35,367 bases of DNA, taken from positions 1-35,367 of the IMG/VR virus record IMGVR_UViG_3300048588_000205; one strand, written 5' to 3'. Origin of the DNA: a virus. The position numbers and the translations under genes were made by a program. Positions 5,218 through 35,367 of this stretch are shown piece after piece. The notes below the pieces were generated by a model. The model saw nothing but the letters and a program-made list of their open reading frames with translations. It was not told where the DNA came from and did not search any database. Position 1 is the stretch's first letter. Each line of letters opens with the position of its first letter.

Positions 5218-6446
5218 CAACACACCTCCATGTCGCCCCACCCGCGGTGGTGGGCTGAGCCGACGGTCAGCGTCAACATCCCCGGCGGCGAGGTGCGCCC
5301 CGTGGTCGACGTGTACCAGTACGAGCCGCCGTCCATGGAGGGGGACATCACCACGGTGCGCCCGGTCTCCTCGCTGATCTGTAGGTGGTGGCGGTGGGCG
5401 GTGATGATGAGGTCAGCAGCGGCGATCGGCTGGCGGCCCATGATCTGCCCCTCCCACCACTTCTCGACGGCGGCGGCACCGGTGGCCGAGGTCGCACCAG
5501 CTCGCCGCTTGGAGCCGATCTGATGGCCGTGGGTGAGGCCCACGTTCACGCCTGCCACGTCGATGACCATCGTCAGGTCGCGGGCGTAGGCGAAGTCCAC
5601 GGCGCCGTACCGGTCGACGTTGGCGGCGCACGCCTCCTCGATGCCTTCGACGATGGTCAGCGATGCGTTGTCGTCGGGGGTGGTCTGCGCCTTGCCGGCG
5701 CCGTTGCGGTTCTCGCCGTGGTTGCAGGGCACCGCGGTCACCGTCACCGCGTAGCCGTCGGTGGTGCAGTCGTCGACCATGCGGAACAGCAGCCGGCGAG
5801 CCACCCGCAGTTGCTCCCGGCCGTTGAGGTCGGTCGTGAAAGCCTGACTGGCGTAGTGCCCGCTCACCGCCTCGACCAGGTCGCCGGTGTTGGCGAGGAC
5901 TACCCGCGATGGGCGGCGGCCCAGCTTCGTCAGCTCGCGCATCCGTTGGCGGGCCCGCTCCCACGATGCGACGATGCGATCGACGGTGGCGGCGCTCCCG
6001 CCTCCCTCGCCCTTGCCGATCTGCCAGTCGTTGAGGCTGACCACGAATGCGGGGTGATCGGTGGCCGTGGCGGCCTTGCGTGGCGGCGCCTTGCGGGTGG
6101 CGACCTTGATGAGCTGGTCGACGTCGGCGCGGTCCACGGCAGTGGAGGCTTCGACGATCGTGGCCCGGTAGTAGCGCATCCGCCGCACTTCGCCGCCACC
6201 GATGGCGGCGTCCCACCCGCGGAACTGCGCCGAGCCGTCGACGATGCGATGCCGTGTCGGGTCGAGACCCCAATCGGCGACGAGCTCGGCCCACATGGCG
6301 GGATCAGGCTCGGACTCCATCGGCCCGGTGGTGACGGTGCCGGCGTGGCCGTCCCAGGTGAGCCCCGGCTCCCAGCCTGCGGGCGCCTTGGCTGGCGGCG
6401 GCGGCCGGTGGTTCTGCTCGAGCGCGGCGGCGAGGTCGCTACTCAC
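5217..6446 (-). CDS. Calcineurin-like metallophosphoesterase
   Basis: 409 residues from GTG 6446, overlapping the previous gene by 8 bases. Metal-ligand motifs appear in family order: SLNDWQ (Asp140), NTGDLVE (187-192), PCNHGEN (240-246), THGHQ (305-309) and TAHRHH (349-354). These are the two-metal phosphoesterase ligands. The first 120 residues are a separate, Pro-rich N-terminal region. Substrate unknown: phage members include nucleases and nucleotide phosphatases. It follows a small HTH-like gene, a pairing I recall from other actinophages. Confidence 0.85.
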   Translation of the reverse strand: MSSDLAAALEQNHRPPPPAKAPAGWEPGLTWDGHAGTVTTGPMESEPDPAMWAELVADWGLDPTRHRIVDGSAQFRGWDAAIGGGEVRRMRYYRATIVEASTAVDRADVDQLIKVATRKAPPRKAATATDHPAFVVSLNDWQIGKGEGGGSAATVDRIVASWERARQRMRELTKLGRRPSRVVLANTGDLVEAVSGHYASQAFTTDLNGREQLRVARRLLFRMVDDCTTDGYAVTVTAVPCNHGENRNGAGKAQTTPDDNASLTIVEGIEEACAANVDRYGAVDFAYARDLTMVIDVAGVNVGLTHGHQIGSKRRAGATSATGAAAVEKWWEGQIMGRQPIAAADLIITAHRHHLQISEETGRTVVMSPSMDGGSYWYTSTTGRTSPPGMLTLTVGSAHHRGWGDMEVC

Positions 6447-24266: not shown

Positions 24267-25068
24267 TGCGCTTGCCCTTGCGTCCAGCAGCCTTGGCCTC
24301 GATGATCATGCCCGGTGGCGTGGCGTCGGTGCCGCACTCCCACCGCCTGATGATCGCCTCGGTCGGCGTGCAGCGGTACCGCTCCTGGAACGTCAGGCAC
24401 TTCGGGCACAGGTCCGAGCTGGCGGCGGCGTTGGGCGGGTACTTCACCCACGCCTCGTGCACGCGGCAGGCCACGATGGTGCGCTGCACCGCCGCGGTCA
24501 TGGTCTCGCCTCGGTGGATGTCCCAGATCCCGAACGCCTTGGCGTGGAGCCATGCCGCCGTCTCGGCCAGGGCGGTGCGCACCAGCGTGTCCAGGTGGGC
24601 GAGGTCGTCCCCGTGGAGCTGGCCGGCGGTGGGCTCGACGAGCGGTGCCCAGCGGTGGATGCGGCTGATGGTGGTGGACACCGCCGCGGTCAGGCCGGGC
24701 TGGCTCGGTGGGATCCACGGTGCGCCGCAGATGTCACCCACCTCGGTGGCGGTCTCGCTGCACAAGGCGACGGCGGCCCGGATGGTGCCCACGGTCTCGT
24801 CGTCGTCGGTGGCGTCGGGCTCGCCCCACAGCGCAGCGATGGCGGTGGGGTCCGAGTGGCCGCCCTTGCCGCCACCGGAGTCGGTGCTGCTGGTGAGCCG
24901 GGACAGGATCTCGTCGTTGGTCATGCCCGAGCGCATGGGCCGGCTGGTGCTCGAGGTGCGCTCGGCGTAGATCCCGATCACCTGGTCGATCGTGTGCGGG
25001 ATCGTGACGCACCACGTGAGGTCCTCGAGGGTGGCCGTGATGGCGGCGGCTCGTCGTTCAGCGCTCAC
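24259..25068 (-). CDS. Hypothetical protein with C-terminal zinc motif
   Basis: 269 residues from GTG 25068 (GTGA overlap). Long helical N-terminal domain (RAAAITATLEDLTWCVTIPH; WLHAKAFGIWDIHRGET) and a C-terminal knuckle LCPKCLTFQERYRC, then a basic end (AAGRKGKRSA). Similar architectures occur in actinophages ahead of terminase genes, as I recall, without a known role. The Cys and basic tail suggest nucleic-acid binding. Confidence 0.75.
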   Translation of the reverse strand: MSAERRAAAITATLEDLTWCVTIPHTIDQVIGIYAERTSSTSRPMRSGMTNDEILSRLTSSTDSGGGKGGHSDPTAIAALWGEPDATDDDETVGTIRAAVALCSETATEVGDICGAPWIPPSQPGLTAAVSTTISRIHRWAPLVEPTAGQLHGDDLAHLDTLVRTALAETAAWLHAKAFGIWDIHRGETMTAAVQRTIVACRVHEAWVKYPPNAAASSDLCPKCLTFQERYRCTPTEAIIRRWECGTDATPPGMIIEAKAAGRKGKRSA

Positions 25069-25361
25069 GGGGCGGTGGTCTCCTGGGTGGCCGGGTGGCG
25101 GCGGATCATGCGGGTGTCGCGCTGGTGCTTGCGTGAGTAGCCGCCCTTGCGCTGGATGAGCTTGCGGTGCCGGGCGTCTCGGATGCGTAGGTCGATCGTC
25201 GTGCGCTCGAGCTCGGGGTGGGCGTAGGTGGTGGCTTCGATCACGTCGGCCAGCGGTGTCCACCGCTCGGCGTCGAGCATGCTCCAGATCGTGATCCAGG
25301 CCCTGGCGGTTGGCGTGGATCGGTCCATCGACGGCCAGAGGTCGGGAACGGTGTCGTTCAC
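25065..25361 (-). CDS. Hypothetical winged-helix-like protein, first gene of the late operon
   Basis: 98 residues from GTG 25361; upstream in-frame starts reach 25451 but there the third positions are not GC-biased, so they are unlikely. WTPLADVIEATTYAHPELER followed by TTIDLRIRDARHRKLIQRKG resembles a winged-helix domain, and the tail is basic. It lies directly beside the candidate origin and may bind it or regulate late genes. Family not certain. Confidence 0.65.
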   Translation of the reverse strand: MNDTVPDLWPSMDRSTPTARAWITIWSMLDAERWTPLADVIEATTYAHPELERTTIDLRIRDARHRKLIQRKGGYSRKHQRDTRMIRRHPATQETTAP

Positions 25362-25432
25362 GATGCGTGCTCTTCGTGGTGGTGGTCGGCGCTCGTTCTG
25401 GTCCGCCCGACCGCGGGCCTCGGAGGGTGGGG

Positions 25433-25732
25433 TGGTCCACTTAGGTCCCACCCTCTAGAGGGGACCACCTGGACCGGACCACTTTGCCCTTGGTTTTTAA
25501 GGGGTTGCGGAGACGGTGGGACCGGCAAATCGGGGAAGTGCGTGGACCACTTCTGGACCTCCATGCGTTTCGGTGTAGATCGGGGAGAGGGTTGTGCAGG
25601 TCACGGCGTTTTGGGTGGGGTGGTCCACTTTTTTGGACCGGCCTCGTGGACCAGTGGACCACCGCAGGTCACAGCCCTGCACGTTGCGTGGCTGGTCCAC
25701 TCCTGTGCGTGGTGTCCACAGAGTTGTCCACA
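25433..25732. other. Repeat-rich non-coding region, candidate replication origin
   Basis: The 25362-25789 gap holds about eight GGACCA/TGGTCC-core repeats. TGGTCCAC is at 25433, 25621 and 25693; GTGGACCA is at 25542, 25646 and 25654; shorter copies are near 25462 and 25476. Two DnaA-box-like sites follow: GTGTCCACA (25712-25720) and TTGTCCACA (25724-25732), the latter matching the actinobacterial DnaA-box consensus. A 12-base palindrome CCCTCTAGAGGG lies at 25451-25462 and an AT-rich patch near 25493-25500. It separates the early (replication) and late operons and has low coding signal. Confidence 0.6.
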
Positions 25733-25757
25733 GACTAGAGGTGTGGTGGAGGGTGAG

Positions 25758-25785
25758 CGTTTCGACCACGGAGAGTGGCGAAACG
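25758..25785. terminator. Hairpin terminator after the early operon
   Basis: CGTTTCG (25758-25764) pairs with CGAAACG (25779-25785), extended inside by CCAC/GTGG across a one-base bulge with loop GGAGA. It begins 5 bases after the methyltransferase stop (25790) on the minus strand, so it probably ends early transcription before the origin-like region. No U tract. Confidence 0.55.
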
Positions 25786-25789
25786 GCGT

Positions 25790-26878
25790 TCATGCGGCAC
25801 CGCCGAACAGGTCGCCTTGTGCGTCAGGTTCACCACCGAGGCAGCCTGGAGACAGCCACAAGGTCTCACCGTGGCGGTTCACGGAGCCCGCAGTGTTGGT
25901 GCCCGCGTAGCCCCCAGTTCCGCTCCATGAGTGGCGCCGCCAGGTGTCGGGGATGAGGTGGTCGTGCTCGGCTGAGTAGCCGGCCAGGACGATCCGATAC
26001 CGGGGGTTGTCGCCATTGTCGAGACACCACTGGCGCACCTCGTGGGCGATCGTGTGGTCGTCGGTGGCGTACAGGTCGGAGGTGCGAACGTCGCCGAGGT
26101 AGGGCGGGTCGAGGAACACGCCGACGGTGGCCCCGTAGTTGAGGGCGCCGTTGGTGACGACCCGTGACCAGTCTCCGCAGCAGACCCGGACCTTGCGGAG
26201 CCGGTCGGCGAGCGCCATGAGGTAGCCGTACATGGGTGGCAGGTCCGGCGCCGGGTTGTCCCACTTGACAGCGGGAGCACCTGACCCACCGGACGAGAAG
26301 TCACCTTGCGAAGACGTGCCCCGCCCGGCGTCGCCGAGGTGGGGGAGCTGGCGGTTGATGCCCTGGCCGGCGCTACCGAGGTGGGGGAGCTGGCGGTTGA
26401 TGCCCTGGCCGGCGCTACCGAGGTGGGGGAGCTGGCCCACCGTGCCGTCGTCGAGCAGCACCCATGGTCCGGTTCCAGCGCACCAGCCGGACCCGATCCA
26501 CGAGTTGATGCCCCATACCCACCACCCGGCGACCTTGGCGTCGAACCACTCGGGGTCTGACGCCATGGCCTCCACGCGGTGCCGTCCTTCAGTGACGAGC
26601 CACAGGTGTCGTGCTTCGAGGTCGGCCTCGTTGACCGGCCAGTCTGCCCACGATGCGACCTCATAGGGGTCGGCAGCCAGTGCCCGCCAGAAGTTGGCGA
26701 GGAACCGGTCGGCGTCGTTGGCGGTCTCGGCCCGGCAGCGGTGCGACGGTGGGCGTTCCAGTAGACACGCGAGCGACCCGGCGAACGGCTCGACGTAGTT
26801 GTCCACGTCGCCAAGCGCCGCCCACACAACATCAGCCACGCGGCGCTTGCCGCCGAACCACGGAAACGGTGCCTTCAT
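25790..26878 (-). CDS. D12-class N6-adenine DNA methyltransferase (Dam-like) with internal tandem repeat
   Basis: 362 residues from ATG 26878, behind AGGAGGAG and overlapping the helicase stop by ATGA. Motifs: PFPWFGGKRR (4-13, motif X), YVEPFAGSLA (28-37, motif I), and FLDPPYLGD (255-263, motif IV with DPPY); their order defines the Dam/DpnM alpha class. Residues 149-190 carry three 14-residue repeats (QLPHLGSAGQGINR twice exactly, then a diverged copy), in the position of the target-recognition/insertion region. It methylates adenine N6; site unknown. End of the early operon. Confidence 0.9.
   Translation of the reverse strand: MKAPFPWFGGKRRVADVVWAALGDVDNYVEPFAGSLACLLERPPSHRCRAETANDADRFLANFWRALAADPYEVASWADWPVNEADLEARHLWLVTEGRHRVEAMASDPEWFDAKVAGWWVWGINSWIGSGWCAGTGPWVLLDDGTVGQLPHLGSAGQGINRQLPHLGSAGQGINRQLPHLGDAGRGTSSQGDFSSGGSGAPAVKWDNPAPDLPPMYGYLMALADRLRKVRVCCGDWSRVVTNGALNYGATVGVFLDPPYLGDVRTSDLYATDDHTIAHEVRQWCLDNGDNPRYRIVLAGYSAEHDHLIPDTWRRHSWSGTGGYAGTNTAGSVNRHGETLWLSPGCLGGEPDAQGDLFGGAA
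26317..26436 (-). repeat. 42-base tandem repeat inside the Dam-like gene
   Basis: TGCCCTGGCCGGCGCTACCG begins an exact 42-base unit at 26359-26400, repeated over 26401-26436, with a diverged copy before it (26317-26358). 42 is a multiple of three, so the frame is kept. Exactness indicates recent duplication by slippage. Confidence 0.95.
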
Positions 26879-28314
26879 ATCTCCTCCTCGAACCCGGCGC
26901 ACAGCGCCTCGAACTTCGCCTTGTTGGCCTCGATGGCGCGGTGCACGTTCGACTTCGGGGCACCGGTCACCATGGCCAGCTCCCGCTCCGACATGCGTCG
27001 CCCGTGCTGGCGCACCAGCTCGGCGATCCGGGCGTAGGTGAGCACCGCCGAGGACACCTCCATGGACCACGGCCAGTCCCCGCCGCGCACGAGGGCGGCA
27101 GGCCAGTCCCGCTCGTCCCGAGCTCCGCGCCAGTGGCGAAGCAGGCCAGCCTCGGAGATGTGGAGACCGAACTCGGGCCACCGCTTCCACAGGGAGGCGC
27201 CGTAGGGTCGCTCGGGGCGGTCGGATCCGGTGCCGTGCGGCTGGTGGGTCTCGAGGGCGAGGGCGAAGCCGTAGGCCACCCGCAGGCGGTCGAGCGTCAT
27301 GGCGGCGGCCTTGGCCGGTTGCTCCTCGGTGGGGTCTCCGCCCACCAGCTTGTAGATCGGGCCGCCGACGACGAGCTCGGGCTGCACGGTGGCGATGAGG
27401 TGGGTGAGGGTGGCCACGTCGGTTGGGTCGTTGAGGTCGAGCCCCTGGGGGTGCACGGCCACGGTCAGGTTGTCGTCTGCTCCCCCGCCGGCGGTGACGT
27501 GGAGCGGTCGGAGTGCCCGGCGAATCTGGCGCTCGCTGTTCTCCAGGTCGAGCAGCAGGACGCGCAGCGGCGCCATCTCCTGGTGGGTGAACGGGTGGAT
27601 GCCCGCCGCGGCCTGGACTGCGATCTGGCGCAGCAGGGTGGACTTCCCGCCACCTTCGGGCCCGGTGAGCAGGATCCGGTCGGTGCGCTCGAGGAGGCCG
27701 GGGATCACCCAGTCGTGGTCGGGCTCGTCGTTAGCCAGGAAGTCGCCGAGGAGTGTGTGGGCGATGCCGTGGCTGCTGGTGTCCTCGGGGACGATGAACG
27801 CCTCGATGACGGACACCGCGGCGGGCAGGTTGTCGGCCCGGGCGTGCTCGGCGGCTTCGATGGCCCCGGCCATGACGGTGCGCAGGCGGGCCATGTGGAT
27901 GACCCGGCGGGCGTAGGCGCTGGCGTTGCGTGCCTCCCAGGTGTGTCCGGCTTGGAGGTTGATGATCCGGTTCTGGACGTCGGGGGAGTCGCCGAGGTGG
28001 GCGCTGAGGGTGATGAGGTCGGGGAGGTCGCCGGCGTTGTCCACCTTGACCACGGCGTCGTAGATGGCGCCGTGGTGGGGCGCGTAGAAGTGGTGTGGTG
28101 CGAGCCCGGTGGCGAAGGTGTCGTCGCGTGCCTGGGTGGAGATGAGGATGGCGCCGAGGACGGCTTCTTCGGCGTCGGTGTCGTGAGGGTTGGCTCGGTG
28201 GCTGTTGGCCCGGGGTGGTGGTGGCGTGGGGCCTTCTGGCCCGGTGGGCGCGAGGAACGGGTCGGCTTCGTCGTACCGCGGGTCATAGGGCGGGCCCTCG
28301 GTGTCGGTGCTCAC
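26875..28314 (-). CDS. Replicative helicase: DnaB N-terminal domain plus RepA/AAA_25-type ATPase
   Basis: 479 residues from GTG 28314 (GTGA overlap). Residues 45-145 show the DnaB N-terminal helical domain (HDTDAEEAVLGAILIS, VIHMARLRTVMAGAIEAAEH). Then a RecA-type core: Walker A GPEGGGKSTLL (218-228) and Walker B RVLLLDLEN (251-259). Near the end, RRMSERELAMVTGAPKSNVH is an HTH-like segment for DNA binding. The core resembles RepA/AAA_25 rather than full DnaB. It probably unwinds the phage origin and recruits host polymerase, since no phage polymerase was seen. Confidence 0.85.
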   Translation of the reverse strand: MSTDTEGPPYDPRYDEADPFLAPTGPEGPTPPPPRANSHRANPHDTDAEEAVLGAILISTQARDDTFATGLAPHHFYAPHHGAIYDAVVKVDNAGDLPDLITLSAHLGDSPDVQNRIINLQAGHTWEARNASAYARRVIHMARLRTVMAGAIEAAEHARADNLPAAVSVIEAFIVPEDTSSHGIAHTLLGDFLANDEPDHDWVIPGLLERTDRILLTGPEGGGKSTLLRQIAVQAAAGIHPFTHQEMAPLRVLLLDLENSERQIRRALRPLHVTAGGGADDNLTVAVHPQGLDLNDPTDVATLTHLIATVQPELVVGGPIYKLVGGDPTEEQPAKAAAMTLDRLRVAYGFALALETHQPHGTGSDRPERPYGASLWKRWPEFGLHISEAGLLRHWRGARDERDWPAALVRGGDWPWSMEVSSAVLTYARIAELVRQHGRRMSERELAMVTGAPKSNVHRAIEANKAKFEALCAGFEEEI

Positions 28315-28955
28315 GGGGCGGTGCCGGCCTCCTGGCCTTCGAGGCGGAACACGAGCAGGGTGGACGTGTTGCGGCGGGCGTGGACCTGGCGCCGGCCGGC
28401 GGGCTGGGCGCGGTAGCTGGCGAGGTCGAACCGGTCGACGAGCCGGTGGCCGAGGGTCTCGGCGTGGTCGGCGAAGATCCGGGTCTGCCAGCGGACCTTG
28501 CCGCTGCACACCTGGTCCTGGCACTTCACGAGCAGCATCCCGCCGGGCCGGAGCACCTTCGTGCACGAGGTGATGCCGTCGGTGATGAGCTGGTGTCGCT
28601 CCTGCCAGGTGGCCGGATGGGCGACCCCGTAGTCGGCATCCGAAGCGGAGGCGCCCTTGCCGGTGCTGGTGCCGTTGAGCTTGTAGGGCGGGTCGAACAC
28701 GACGGCGTCGAACGTGGGGCCAGACCACACGTCGGTGAGCTCTCGGAAGTCGACCGACCCGAGGTCCGAGCGGGTGGGGTCGAGGTCGGTGGCGGTCAGG
28801 TCGTCCGGTCGCCAGAGGGTCCAGAACCGGCCGAGGCCGTAGGTCGGGTCCAGCGTGAGCCACGACGGGCGGAGGTAGCCGAGGGGGACGACGGCGTCGC
28901 GGATCAGCTCGGCGTTGTTGGCCCACGTGCCAGCGGCCAGCACGGGAGAGCTCAC
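28311..28955 (-). CDS. DNA methyltransferase-like protein (DPPY)
   Basis: 214 residues from GTG 28955 (GTGA overlap). LTLDPTYGLGRFWTLW (33-48) is a motif-I-like SAM-binding segment, TATDLDPTRSD the acidic strand, and VVFDPPYKL (85-93) the catalytic motif; VLRPGGMLLVKCQDQ is the typical later strand. Class I SAM-dependent methyltransferase; target base is not determined. Coupled to the ParB-like gene, an arrangement common in actinophages. Confidence 0.85.
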   Translation of the reverse strand: MSSPVLAAGTWANNAELIRDAVVPLGYLRPSWLTLDPTYGLGRFWTLWRPDDLTATDLDPTRSDLGSVDFRELTDVWSGPTFDAVVFDPPYKLNGTSTGKGASASDADYGVAHPATWQERHQLITDGITSCTKVLRPGGMLLVKCQDQVCSGKVRWQTRIFADHAETLGHRLVDRFDLASYRAQPAGRRQVHARRNTSTLLVFRLEGQEAGTAP

Positions 28956-29908
28956 GTCGGCCCCCTGGTGAGCAGGGTGTGCGCCTTGTGCATGACGTTG
29001 GCCGCGTCCATGATCCGTTGGGCGAGCACGGCTCGGACGTCGTCGTTCGGGCACGTGTCGTAGACGTCGATCGGGTCGAGGGCCTTGATCTCGGCGAGGG
29101 CGTTGTCGAGCCGGGCCCGGGCGGTTCGGCCAGCGGCGCGCACGTTGCCGCCGCGCTGGGTGGCGCGGTCGCGGTGGTCCTCGGCTTCGCCGCCGATGAG
29201 CCGGAGCGCCTCGGTGGGCTCGGCGCTGATGGCGGCGGCCACGATCGGGCGGAGGGTGCCCACGGGCATCGCCGTGGTGAGGGCGAGGTCGGCGGCCGCG
29301 GCGAACACGGCGTCGTGGTCGAGGCGGCCGAGCTCGTAGCGGACCGGCTCGGGGAGGCGGGCGAACCCTTCGATGCCGGCGGCGGTGGCGCGCCGGGTGG
29401 CTTCGAGGGCGTTGGCGGCGATGGACAGCTTCGGCTGGGCGATCCCGACGATGGCTGCGGCGTCGCGTTGGGTCATGCCGTCGGCCATGAGGGCGATGGC
29501 GTGCTCGACGCGCTCGGCGGTGGTCGGTGGGAGGCCGTGGCGGGCGTTGTCCTCGAAGCGGATCCGGCGCAGCACGGCGTCGGTGCCGGTGACGAGGTAC
29601 GCGGCCAGCGTGGACCGGCGGGCCCGGGTGGCGGCTGCGACGCGGTGGTTCCCGCCGAGCGGGACCAGGGCGTCGGCGTCGATCGCGATGATCGGCGGGA
29701 AGATCGCGCCGTCGACCATGGCGGCGGCGTAGCGGTCGACTACCTCTTCGTGGAGGGGTTCGTGGCGGACCTGGTTGGCGAGGCCCGCGGCCTTGTCGAT
29801 GCGGGCGAGCGGGAGGTCAGGGTCGAAGCGCCACGCGGCGCCGAGCTGGGTCAGCCAAGCTTCGACGTCTTGCTGTCGAGCCGGGTGGAGGGGTTCGGTG
29901 ATGGTCAT
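28952..29908 (-). CDS. ParB-like nuclease-domain protein
   Basis: 318 residues, ATG 29908 (ATGA overlap). ParB N-terminal core: PLARIDKAAGLANQVRHEPL, FPPIIAIDADALVPLGGNHR (the GGNHR box) and VAAATRARRSTLAAYLV, followed by an HTH (TQRDAAAIVGIAQPKLSIAA, around 148-167). Phage ParB-like proteins may be nucleases or CTPases; no ParA partner is present, so plasmid-type partition is unlikely. Linked to a methyltransferase and the helicase. Confidence 0.85.
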   Translation of the reverse strand: MTITEPLHPARQQDVEAWLTQLGAAWRFDPDLPLARIDKAAGLANQVRHEPLHEEVVDRYAAAMVDGAIFPPIIAIDADALVPLGGNHRVAAATRARRSTLAAYLVTGTDAVLRRIRFEDNARHGLPPTTAERVEHAIALMADGMTQRDAAAIVGIAQPKLSIAANALEATRRATAAGIEGFARLPEPVRYELGRLDHDAVFAAAADLALTTAMPVGTLRPIVAAAISAEPTEALRLIGGEAEDHRDRATQRGGNVRAAGRTARARLDNALAEIKALDPIDVYDTCPNDDVRAVLAQRIMDAANVMHKAHTLLTRGPT

Positions 29909-30351
29909 GCGGCCTCCCTGGCCTTGCGTCGACGGGCGGCCTCGTTGAGGCGATGGCAGGTCCGGCACCGGCGACCCCGGCCGGGCGGCATGTCCGCCTC
30001 GTAGGGGTGGCCGTTGCGGCAGTGCGTGGCCCGCTCACCGATCACCCCACCGCGACGAACGTTCTCCCCCGCCGAGACCGGCTCCAAGTGCGAGACGTTG
30101 ACGCACGCCCTGTTGGTGCACAGGTGGTCGAGCACGAGGCCCGCCGGGATCGGTCCCATCAGCAGCACGTAGGCGAAGCGGTGCGCCAGGACCCGGACCC
30201 CGGCGTGACGGATCTCGCCGTAGCCATCGGAGCGCACGAGCCCGGTCCACTCTCGGCAGCCATCGGGGCGCCGGGCGCTGTTGGCCCAGAGGCGTTCCGT
30301 CGGTGTGGGGGTCAGGATGACCTCCGAGCTGGTGTCGATGTCGATGGTCAT
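29905..30351 (-). CDS. HNH homing-type endonuclease (HNH_3 group)
   Basis: 148 residues from ATG 30351 (ATGA overlap). Typical order: CREWTGLVRSDGYGEIRHAG (32-51), AHRFAYVLLMGPIPAGLVLD leading to the catalytic DHLC (75-78), ACVNVSHLEPVSAGEN with HLE, then a second zinc-binding part THCRNGHPYEAD and RRCRTCHRLN. This group includes free-standing homing endonucleases. It lies in a tight operon, overlapping both neighbours, so insertion must have been accommodated. Confidence 0.92.
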   Translation of the reverse strand: MTIDIDTSSEVILTPTPTERLWANSARRPDGCREWTGLVRSDGYGEIRHAGVRVLAHRFAYVLLMGPIPAGLVLDHLCTNRACVNVSHLEPVSAGENVRRGGVIGERATHCRNGHPYEADMPPGRGRRCRTCHRLNEAARRRKAREAA

Positions 30352-34981: not shown

Positions 34982-35367
34982 CACGCCTGCACCTCCCGTT
35001 CGAGGCGCCACGTCGACGTGTTCACGGTCCACCCGGCAGGCGGAACCGTGCACGCGCTGCACCGGGCGCGGGTCAGGTCGGCGCCGGTCAGGTCGGCGTC
35101 GGCCAGGTTGGCGCCGGTCAGGTTGGCGCCGGTCAGGTCGGCGTCGGCCAGGTTGGCGCCGGTCAGGTTGGCGCCGGCCAGGTTGGCGCGGGTCAGGTTG
35201 GCGCCGGTCAGGTCGGCGCCGGTCAGGTCGGCGTCGGCCAGGTTGGCGCCGGTCAGGTAGGCGCCGGTCAGGTTGGCGCCGGTCAGGTTGGCGCCGGCCA
35301 GGTTGGCGCGGGTCAGGTTGGCGCCGGTCAGGTCGGCGCCGGTCAGGTCGGCGTCGGCCAGGTTGGC
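34981..35367 (-). CDS. Pentapeptide-repeat protein, C-terminal part (joins 633-1)
   Basis: This is the continuation of the gene starting at 633. It holds about 20 further pentapeptides, then a 28-residue non-repeat tail beginning [10 protein letters not shown] and ending REVQA. Stop TGA shares one base with the next ATG (TGATG), so the downstream gene is translationally coupled. The repeats have a higher-order period: 35281-35367 copies 35161-35247 exactly at a 120-base (8-pentapeptide) offset. Because the contig ends fall inside this array, the true repeat number is uncertain. Two Cys in the tail (CSAC) could bind metal, but there is no second pair nearby. Confidence 0.85.
35068..35367 (-). 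repeat. 15-base tandem repeats encoding pentapeptides (second block), 120-base higher-order period
   Basis: Same coding repeat as at the start of the window. Positions 35161-35247 and 35281-35367 are identical, showing recent block duplication of eight 15-base units. The last 69 bases also equal the first 69 bases of the window. Confidence 0.95.
35299..35367. repeat. 69-base terminal direct repeat (identical to 1-69)
   Basis: Base-by-base comparison shows that 35299-35367 equals 1-69. The length is a multiple of three, so the minus-strand frame is preserved when the ends are merged. This is the signature of a circular assembly, but it lies wholly inside a tandem array, so a repeat-induced false closure cannot be excluded. 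Confidence 0.85.

Follow-up and report, generated by a model that had tools for sequence, protein, structure and literature searches.

How the phages of actinobacteria choose the site at which replication starts has been little studied. In the closest described systems, the Rep protein of SaPI and Cch2 of SCCmec, the origin directly follows the gene of a helicase, whose C-terminal domain binds short repeats there, and no separate initiator is present (PMC7581432). As for helicase families, Cch is a DUF927 protein and Cch2 is a 3'-to-5' helicase (PMC7581432). Besides, rep1/rep2 replicons have been described in Streptomyces linear plasmids (PMC13152386), and RepA-dependent origins in mycobacteriophage prophages; the latter have a separate RepA with an N-terminal HTH, and the authors identified no repeat motifs in the repA-containing interval from the tail genes to parS-L (PMC7157519).

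Here we analyzed a virus record of 35,367 bases (the window, i.e., the whole stretch of DNA under analysis). By computation, we found a repeat cluster with a conserved place among relatives, a link between this place and a C-terminal HTH of a helicase, and covariation of the repeated heptamer with the DNA-reading residues of that HTH. Judging from these sequence comparisons, we consider it likely that the cluster is a phage replication origin read directly by the C-terminal HTH of its DnaB-family helicase. The features of the window are as follows.

25065 to 25361, minus strand: next gene past the cluster, coding by GC3, no Pfam family
25433 to 25699, both orientations: six exact TGGWCCA (starts 25433, 25543, 25621, 25647, 25655, and 25693) and GGWCC near-copies
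25444 to 25467, no strand assigned: inverted repeat GGTCCCACCCTCTAGAGGGGACCA, downstream edge of the cluster
25596 to 25603, plus strand: constant box GCAGGTCA (TGACCTGC on the opposite strand), copy 1, a sequence enriched in the relatives' clusters
25664 to 25671, plus strand: constant box GCAGGTCA, copy 2, likewise enriched
25712 to 25720, plus strand: DnaA-box-like GTGTCCACA, one of the window's two TGTCCACA
25724 to 25732, plus strand: DnaA box TTGTCCACA, 12 bp from GTGTCCACA
25790 to 26878, minus strand: Dam-like D12 adenine methyltransferase, between helicase and cluster
26875 to 28311, minus strand: DnaB-family replicative helicase (Pfam, DnaB fold match), proposed origin-binding initiator
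26878 to 27066, minus strand: C-terminal HTH domain, residues 416 to 478, with covarying residues E442, K453, S454, and H457

Relatives were gathered via the DnaB-like helicase from viral contigs and bacterial genomes, and repeat clusters near their helicases were sought by a blind k-mer scan. Related prophages lie in Aeromicrobium sp. 9AM, A. phragmitis, Ornithinimicrobium cerasi, and Actinopolymorpha alba. Where a helicase matched to its end, a tight cluster of repeats accompanied it, in most cases immediately past the gene, and the heptamer varied between relatives. As with SaPI Rep and Cch2, the short repeats directly follow the helicase gene, here at a putative origin: a heptamer cluster lies downstream, within 2.5 kb, in 23 of 25 distinct loci of the HTH type (log10 p below -8). 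A C-terminal recognition domain would be a second likeness, which is suggested here by covariation and a predicted HTH. Unlike these proteins, the helicase is DnaB-like (PF00772 plus PF13481, with a DnaB fold) and shows no DUF927 in Pfam; furthermore, the present systems belong to phages and prophages of actinobacteria and have an HTH of 60 residues and a constant box, with DnaA boxes in some of them. By analogy, we propose that the window helicase works like SaPI Rep, yet it is not of that family.

Streptomyces linear plasmids encode a homologous DnaB-like helicase (plasmid matches include pSCL1). However, the helicase of pSCL1 ends without an HTH, and an HTH protein is encoded separately upstream of it, whereas here the HTH is within the helicase and the repeats come after its gene; in the Rep1/Rep2 replicon, the DNA-binding Rep1 has its own gene just before that of the helicase, and such a gene is absent here. 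The genes upstream of the helicase vary between HTH-type loci, that of the window being a DNA methyltransferase. Downstream of the pSCL1 helicase gene (our locus L182, about 5300 to 6050), ACCGTCA and ATGTCGG each occur nine times where no gene is annotated. The Gordonia/Arthrobacter phages Schmidt, TinaLin, Hum25, VanLee, and Cafasso also have a homologous helicase in a similar place of the replication module, but differ in having a separate RepA-like initiator gene, no C-terminal HTH, and no downstream TGNNNCA cluster. With the RepA-dependent mycobacteriophage prophages, the locus would share an actinophage-encoded origin recognition for autonomous replication, as we propose here.

The first-pass annotation had reported about eight copies of GGACCA/TGGTCC in 25433 to 25732, and we counted exactly eight (starts 25433, 25462, 25476, 25544, 25621, 25648, 25656, and 25693). 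In comparison with 2000 dinucleotide shuffles, the region 25381 to 25800 contained 9 GGACCA/TGGTCC (shuffled mean, 0.66; maximum, 4) and 14 GGWCC (mean, 2.8; maximum, 9), and all four copies of GTGGWCCAC in the 35 kb fall within it. The actual repeat unit is the heptamer TGGWCCA. That the 300-base stretch is noncoding, as had been claimed, was borne out by base composition: GC at the three codon positions was 0.61/0.58/0.65 in the frame 25497 to 25793, compared with 0.73/0.49/0.91 in the helicase gene and 0.61/0.55/0.91 in the gene 25065 to 25361. Because the codon signature of real genes is absent, this frame, which had no family match, was ruled out as a gene, and the stretch is intergenic, between the D12 methyltransferase and the gene 25065 to 25361, both on the minus strand. 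GC skew showed no turn or inflection at the cluster site. GC content of the clusters was lower than that of their own locus in 23 of 24 loci and equal in the remaining one (L208). The k-mer scan also flagged arrays with a 15-bp period at 1 to 231 (with a 60-bp higher order) and 35065 to 35367; judged by their reading, they are a pentapeptide-repeat gene with no relation to the cluster. The genome may be circular or permuted, with the ends of the record lying within the pentapeptide repeat. DNA similarity of the window to GenBank phages was confined to short helicase and methylase matches.

The helicase comprises 478 amino acids as numbered, but translation probably begins at a GTG one codon before this, at 28314. 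Its membership in the DnaB family follows from a DnaB N-terminal domain (PF00772, 8.5e-17) and a RecA-like ATPase core (PF13481, AAA_25, 1.2e-20) with a DnaB fold, the best PDB matches being DnaB (E = 2e-14). The predicted HTH makes up the last 60 or so residues of the helicases of this set. Pfam scores on it were weak and below the cutoff, and the isolated domain had no significant match in PDB. An AlphaFold model of the domain (pLDDT, 89) places residue 442 as the first residue of helix 2; in the recognition helix, residues 453, 454, and 457 occupy positions 1, 2, and 5. The start of helix 2 and these three positions are the usual DNA-reading places of HTH proteins. Among the GenBank phage and plasmid matches listed for the helicase, none reaches the HTH end. 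The D12 methyltransferase gene contains an in-frame 42-bp tandem repeat at 26334 to 26436 (2.5 copies, 100% identical). A weakly matching N6/N4-type DNA methyltransferase lies at 28311 to 29054, after a ParB-like gene, and two methyltransferases thus flank the window helicase, counting the D12 enzyme.

The heptamers of the 24 loci compared, window included, were the following.

TGGACCA: window, L096, L100, L101, L108
TGGGACA: L001, L046, L086, L105, L201, L204
TGGGCCA: L103, L208
TGGAACA: L049
TGAATCA: L044, L095, L097, L104
TGAAACA: L045, L048
TGATCCA: L197
less regular forms: L189, L099, L203

In 18 of the 25 HTH-type loci, the top 7-mer, picked without constraint, was of the form TGNNNCA. 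The two HTH-type loci lacking a downstream cluster are L102, where the sequence past the gene amounts to no more than about 1.3 kb, and L107. Helicases without the HTH, in contrast, had a downstream cluster in only 3 of 53 cases, never TGNNNCA, and an upstream cluster in 17 of 49. Thus, the repeats tend to adjoin the gene with the DNA-binding domain. The cluster directly follows the helicase gene in most relatives, whereas one methyltransferase gene intervenes in the window. Clusters of another sequence were often seen upstream in loci without the HTH (L050 to L094, L126, L144, L149, L173, and L181), at or close to the position of a Rep1/RepA-like gene. The helicase was the sole protein family common to all 22 loci with enough flank; shadow frames of its gene account for the other families found in most loci, and those next in frequency occurred in 7 loci. 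Two candidates for an iteron binder had been put forward, the helicase C-terminal HTH and the protein encoded at 25065 to 25361. The latter was dropped, having no family, no relative in 2.9 million viral contigs, and no place among the shared genes, whereas the former gained strong support from covariation.

We scanned 288 helicase columns for information on heptamer bases 3 to 5. Columns 453, 454, and 442 were among the leaders, followed by 457; the poorly aligned, C-terminal-most column 478 was also high, and a ranking by partial correlation placed the outlier-driven column H393 first. Lys or Arg at 453 pairs with G at base 3, and Gln, Ile, or Val with A (Fisher p, 0.0007). Similarly, Glu or Gln at 442 pairs with C or T at base 5, and a hydrophobic residue with A (Fisher p, 0.0006), with L045 and L048 as exceptions. 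The rule for 442 even separates L103 (Q442, TGGGCCA) from L105 (V442, TGGGACA), whose recognition helices are nearly alike. In leave-one-out prediction of the heptamer (18 loci), the four residues reached 92%, an optimistic upper figure because they were chosen on the same data, compared with 39% when the remainder of the HTH domain was used and 28% with the core. None of 1000 random sets of four columns equalled the four residues; such permutation figures ignore the relatedness of the loci, but relatedness is an unlikely cause of the covariation because motif similarity was uncorrelated with core identity (r = -0.01). L103 and L104, whose helicase cores are 85% identical, offer a close comparison. 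Their putative origins align and for the most part share the CCCCCTTACGGGGG hairpin, the boxes of the TGACCTGC type, the TG...CA at the heptamer ends, and much of the spacing, and the center of nearly every heptamer differs, from GCC in L103 to ATT (or the complement) in L104. At residues 453, 454, and 457, the L104 type has Gln, Pro, and Ser in place of the Lys, Ser, and His of the window. Such a concerted switch is as expected if the reader had changed and all sites had followed. The suggestion that the region is origin-like and that the phage encodes an iteron binder is supported, and the covariation across relatives argues strongly, albeit indirectly, that the helicase HTH binds the heptamers.

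In addition to the heptamers, the clusters of 22 of 23 loci contained a constant box around TGACCTGC, with 48 copies in the 9.7 kb of the clusters versus 27 in 269 kb outside (49-fold enrichment). The heptamer, in the orientation listed above, stood 3 to 6 bp before TGACC in 14 of 23 loci. TGACCTGC is unchanged whichever heptamer a locus has, and therefore it is probably read by a constant factor. A perfect hairpin such as CCCCCTTACGGGGG was present in several relatives at the edge where the window has its inverted repeat, but a conserved terminal hairpin was rejected, the perfect form being found neither in all loci nor in the window.

An alternative is that the cluster is an operator through which the helicase HTH or another phage protein controls downstream transcription rather than the start of replication. 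The position of the cluster between replication/recombination genes and terminase/structural genes would suit this, and the covariation is compatible with autoregulation by the helicase. However, the proposed binder is a replicative helicase, and in several phages whose helicase lacks the HTH, a gene annotated as a RepA-like initiator or for replication initiation lies upstream of that of the helicase, many such relatives having repeats upstream as well. Moreover, DnaA boxes are concentrated at the clusters: searching for TT[AGT]TCCACA, we found 9 in 9.3 kb of cluster DNA versus 2 in 262 kb elsewhere. The pair of tandem DnaA boxes claimed for the window is indeed there, as its only two TGTCCACA, 12 bp apart, at 25712 to 25732, and L046 has two boxes TTATCCACAGGGTTATCCAC with the same 12-bp spacing at the same edge of the cluster. 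We therefore regard an operator as unlikely.

The heptamers might instead be parS-like centromere sites bound by the ParB-like protein encoded at 28952 to 29968, upstream of the window helicase (phrog_1033, E = 5e-4). Indeed, TGTTTCAC/GTGAAACA of L045/L048 equal half of the bacterial parS, and L049 also has an upstream ParB-like frame, as judged by eye. Nevertheless, the protein had no tblastn relative in the other loci, no ParB-like gene was among those common to the loci, and the heptamers covary with the helicase HTH. Lacking a conserved, linked ParB gene, a ParABS centromere with this protein as the binder was rejected, and we rate it as very improbable. No ParA was noticed among the genes scanned.

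It is just as improbable that the HTH-coding end and the adjacent cluster travel as one recombination block, the HTH not binding the heptamers at all. Most loci do have the two side by side, and phages do exchange modules, but the likeness of loci sharing a heptamer is concentrated at the four DNA-reading positions (identity, 0.54 for same-heptamer pairs versus 0.14) and hardly extends to other parts of the HTH domain (0.31 versus 0.26) or to the core (0.56 versus 0.56). Besides, the window, L045, and L048 fit the covariation despite 1.2 to 1.8 kb and at least one gene between helicase and cluster. Least probable is an origin driven by DnaA with the heptamers as incidental, for which the two boxes of the window and the tandem boxes of L046 speak, but against which 17 of 23 loci have heptamers and no box of the searched form. 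With boxes in 6 of 23 loci only, a universal DnaA-driven origin was ruled out; the assistance by host DnaA that had been suggested may hold for this subset and not as a general rule.

We thus return to an origin bound by its own helicase. The helicase would bind the heptamers via its C-terminal HTH and so act as its own origin-recognition protein; this binding would concentrate the enzyme at the site and load it there, and a separate phage initiator would probably not be needed for helicase loading. Once loaded, the helicase would unwind the DNA adjoining the cluster, and host DnaA may help in some phages, that of the window included. More broadly, a branch of DnaB-family helicases in actinobacterial phages has, in our view probably, gained a C-terminal HTH and thereby taken over the recognition of its own origin. 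A code between residues 442, 453, 454, and 457 and heptamer bases 3 to 5 would have switched repeatedly, all iterons being rewritten together on a fixed scaffold, perhaps avoiding cross-recognition between co-infecting phages. In the open literature searched, we did not find such a DnaB-family helicase described, although a description may exist. If the reading is true, a single protein recognizes the origin and unwinds it, as is known for other helicase families, and some 10 natural heptamers would provide a ready specificity table, with a recognition code that could be tested by single-residue swaps. It would also raise the question of how all iterons of one origin change together.
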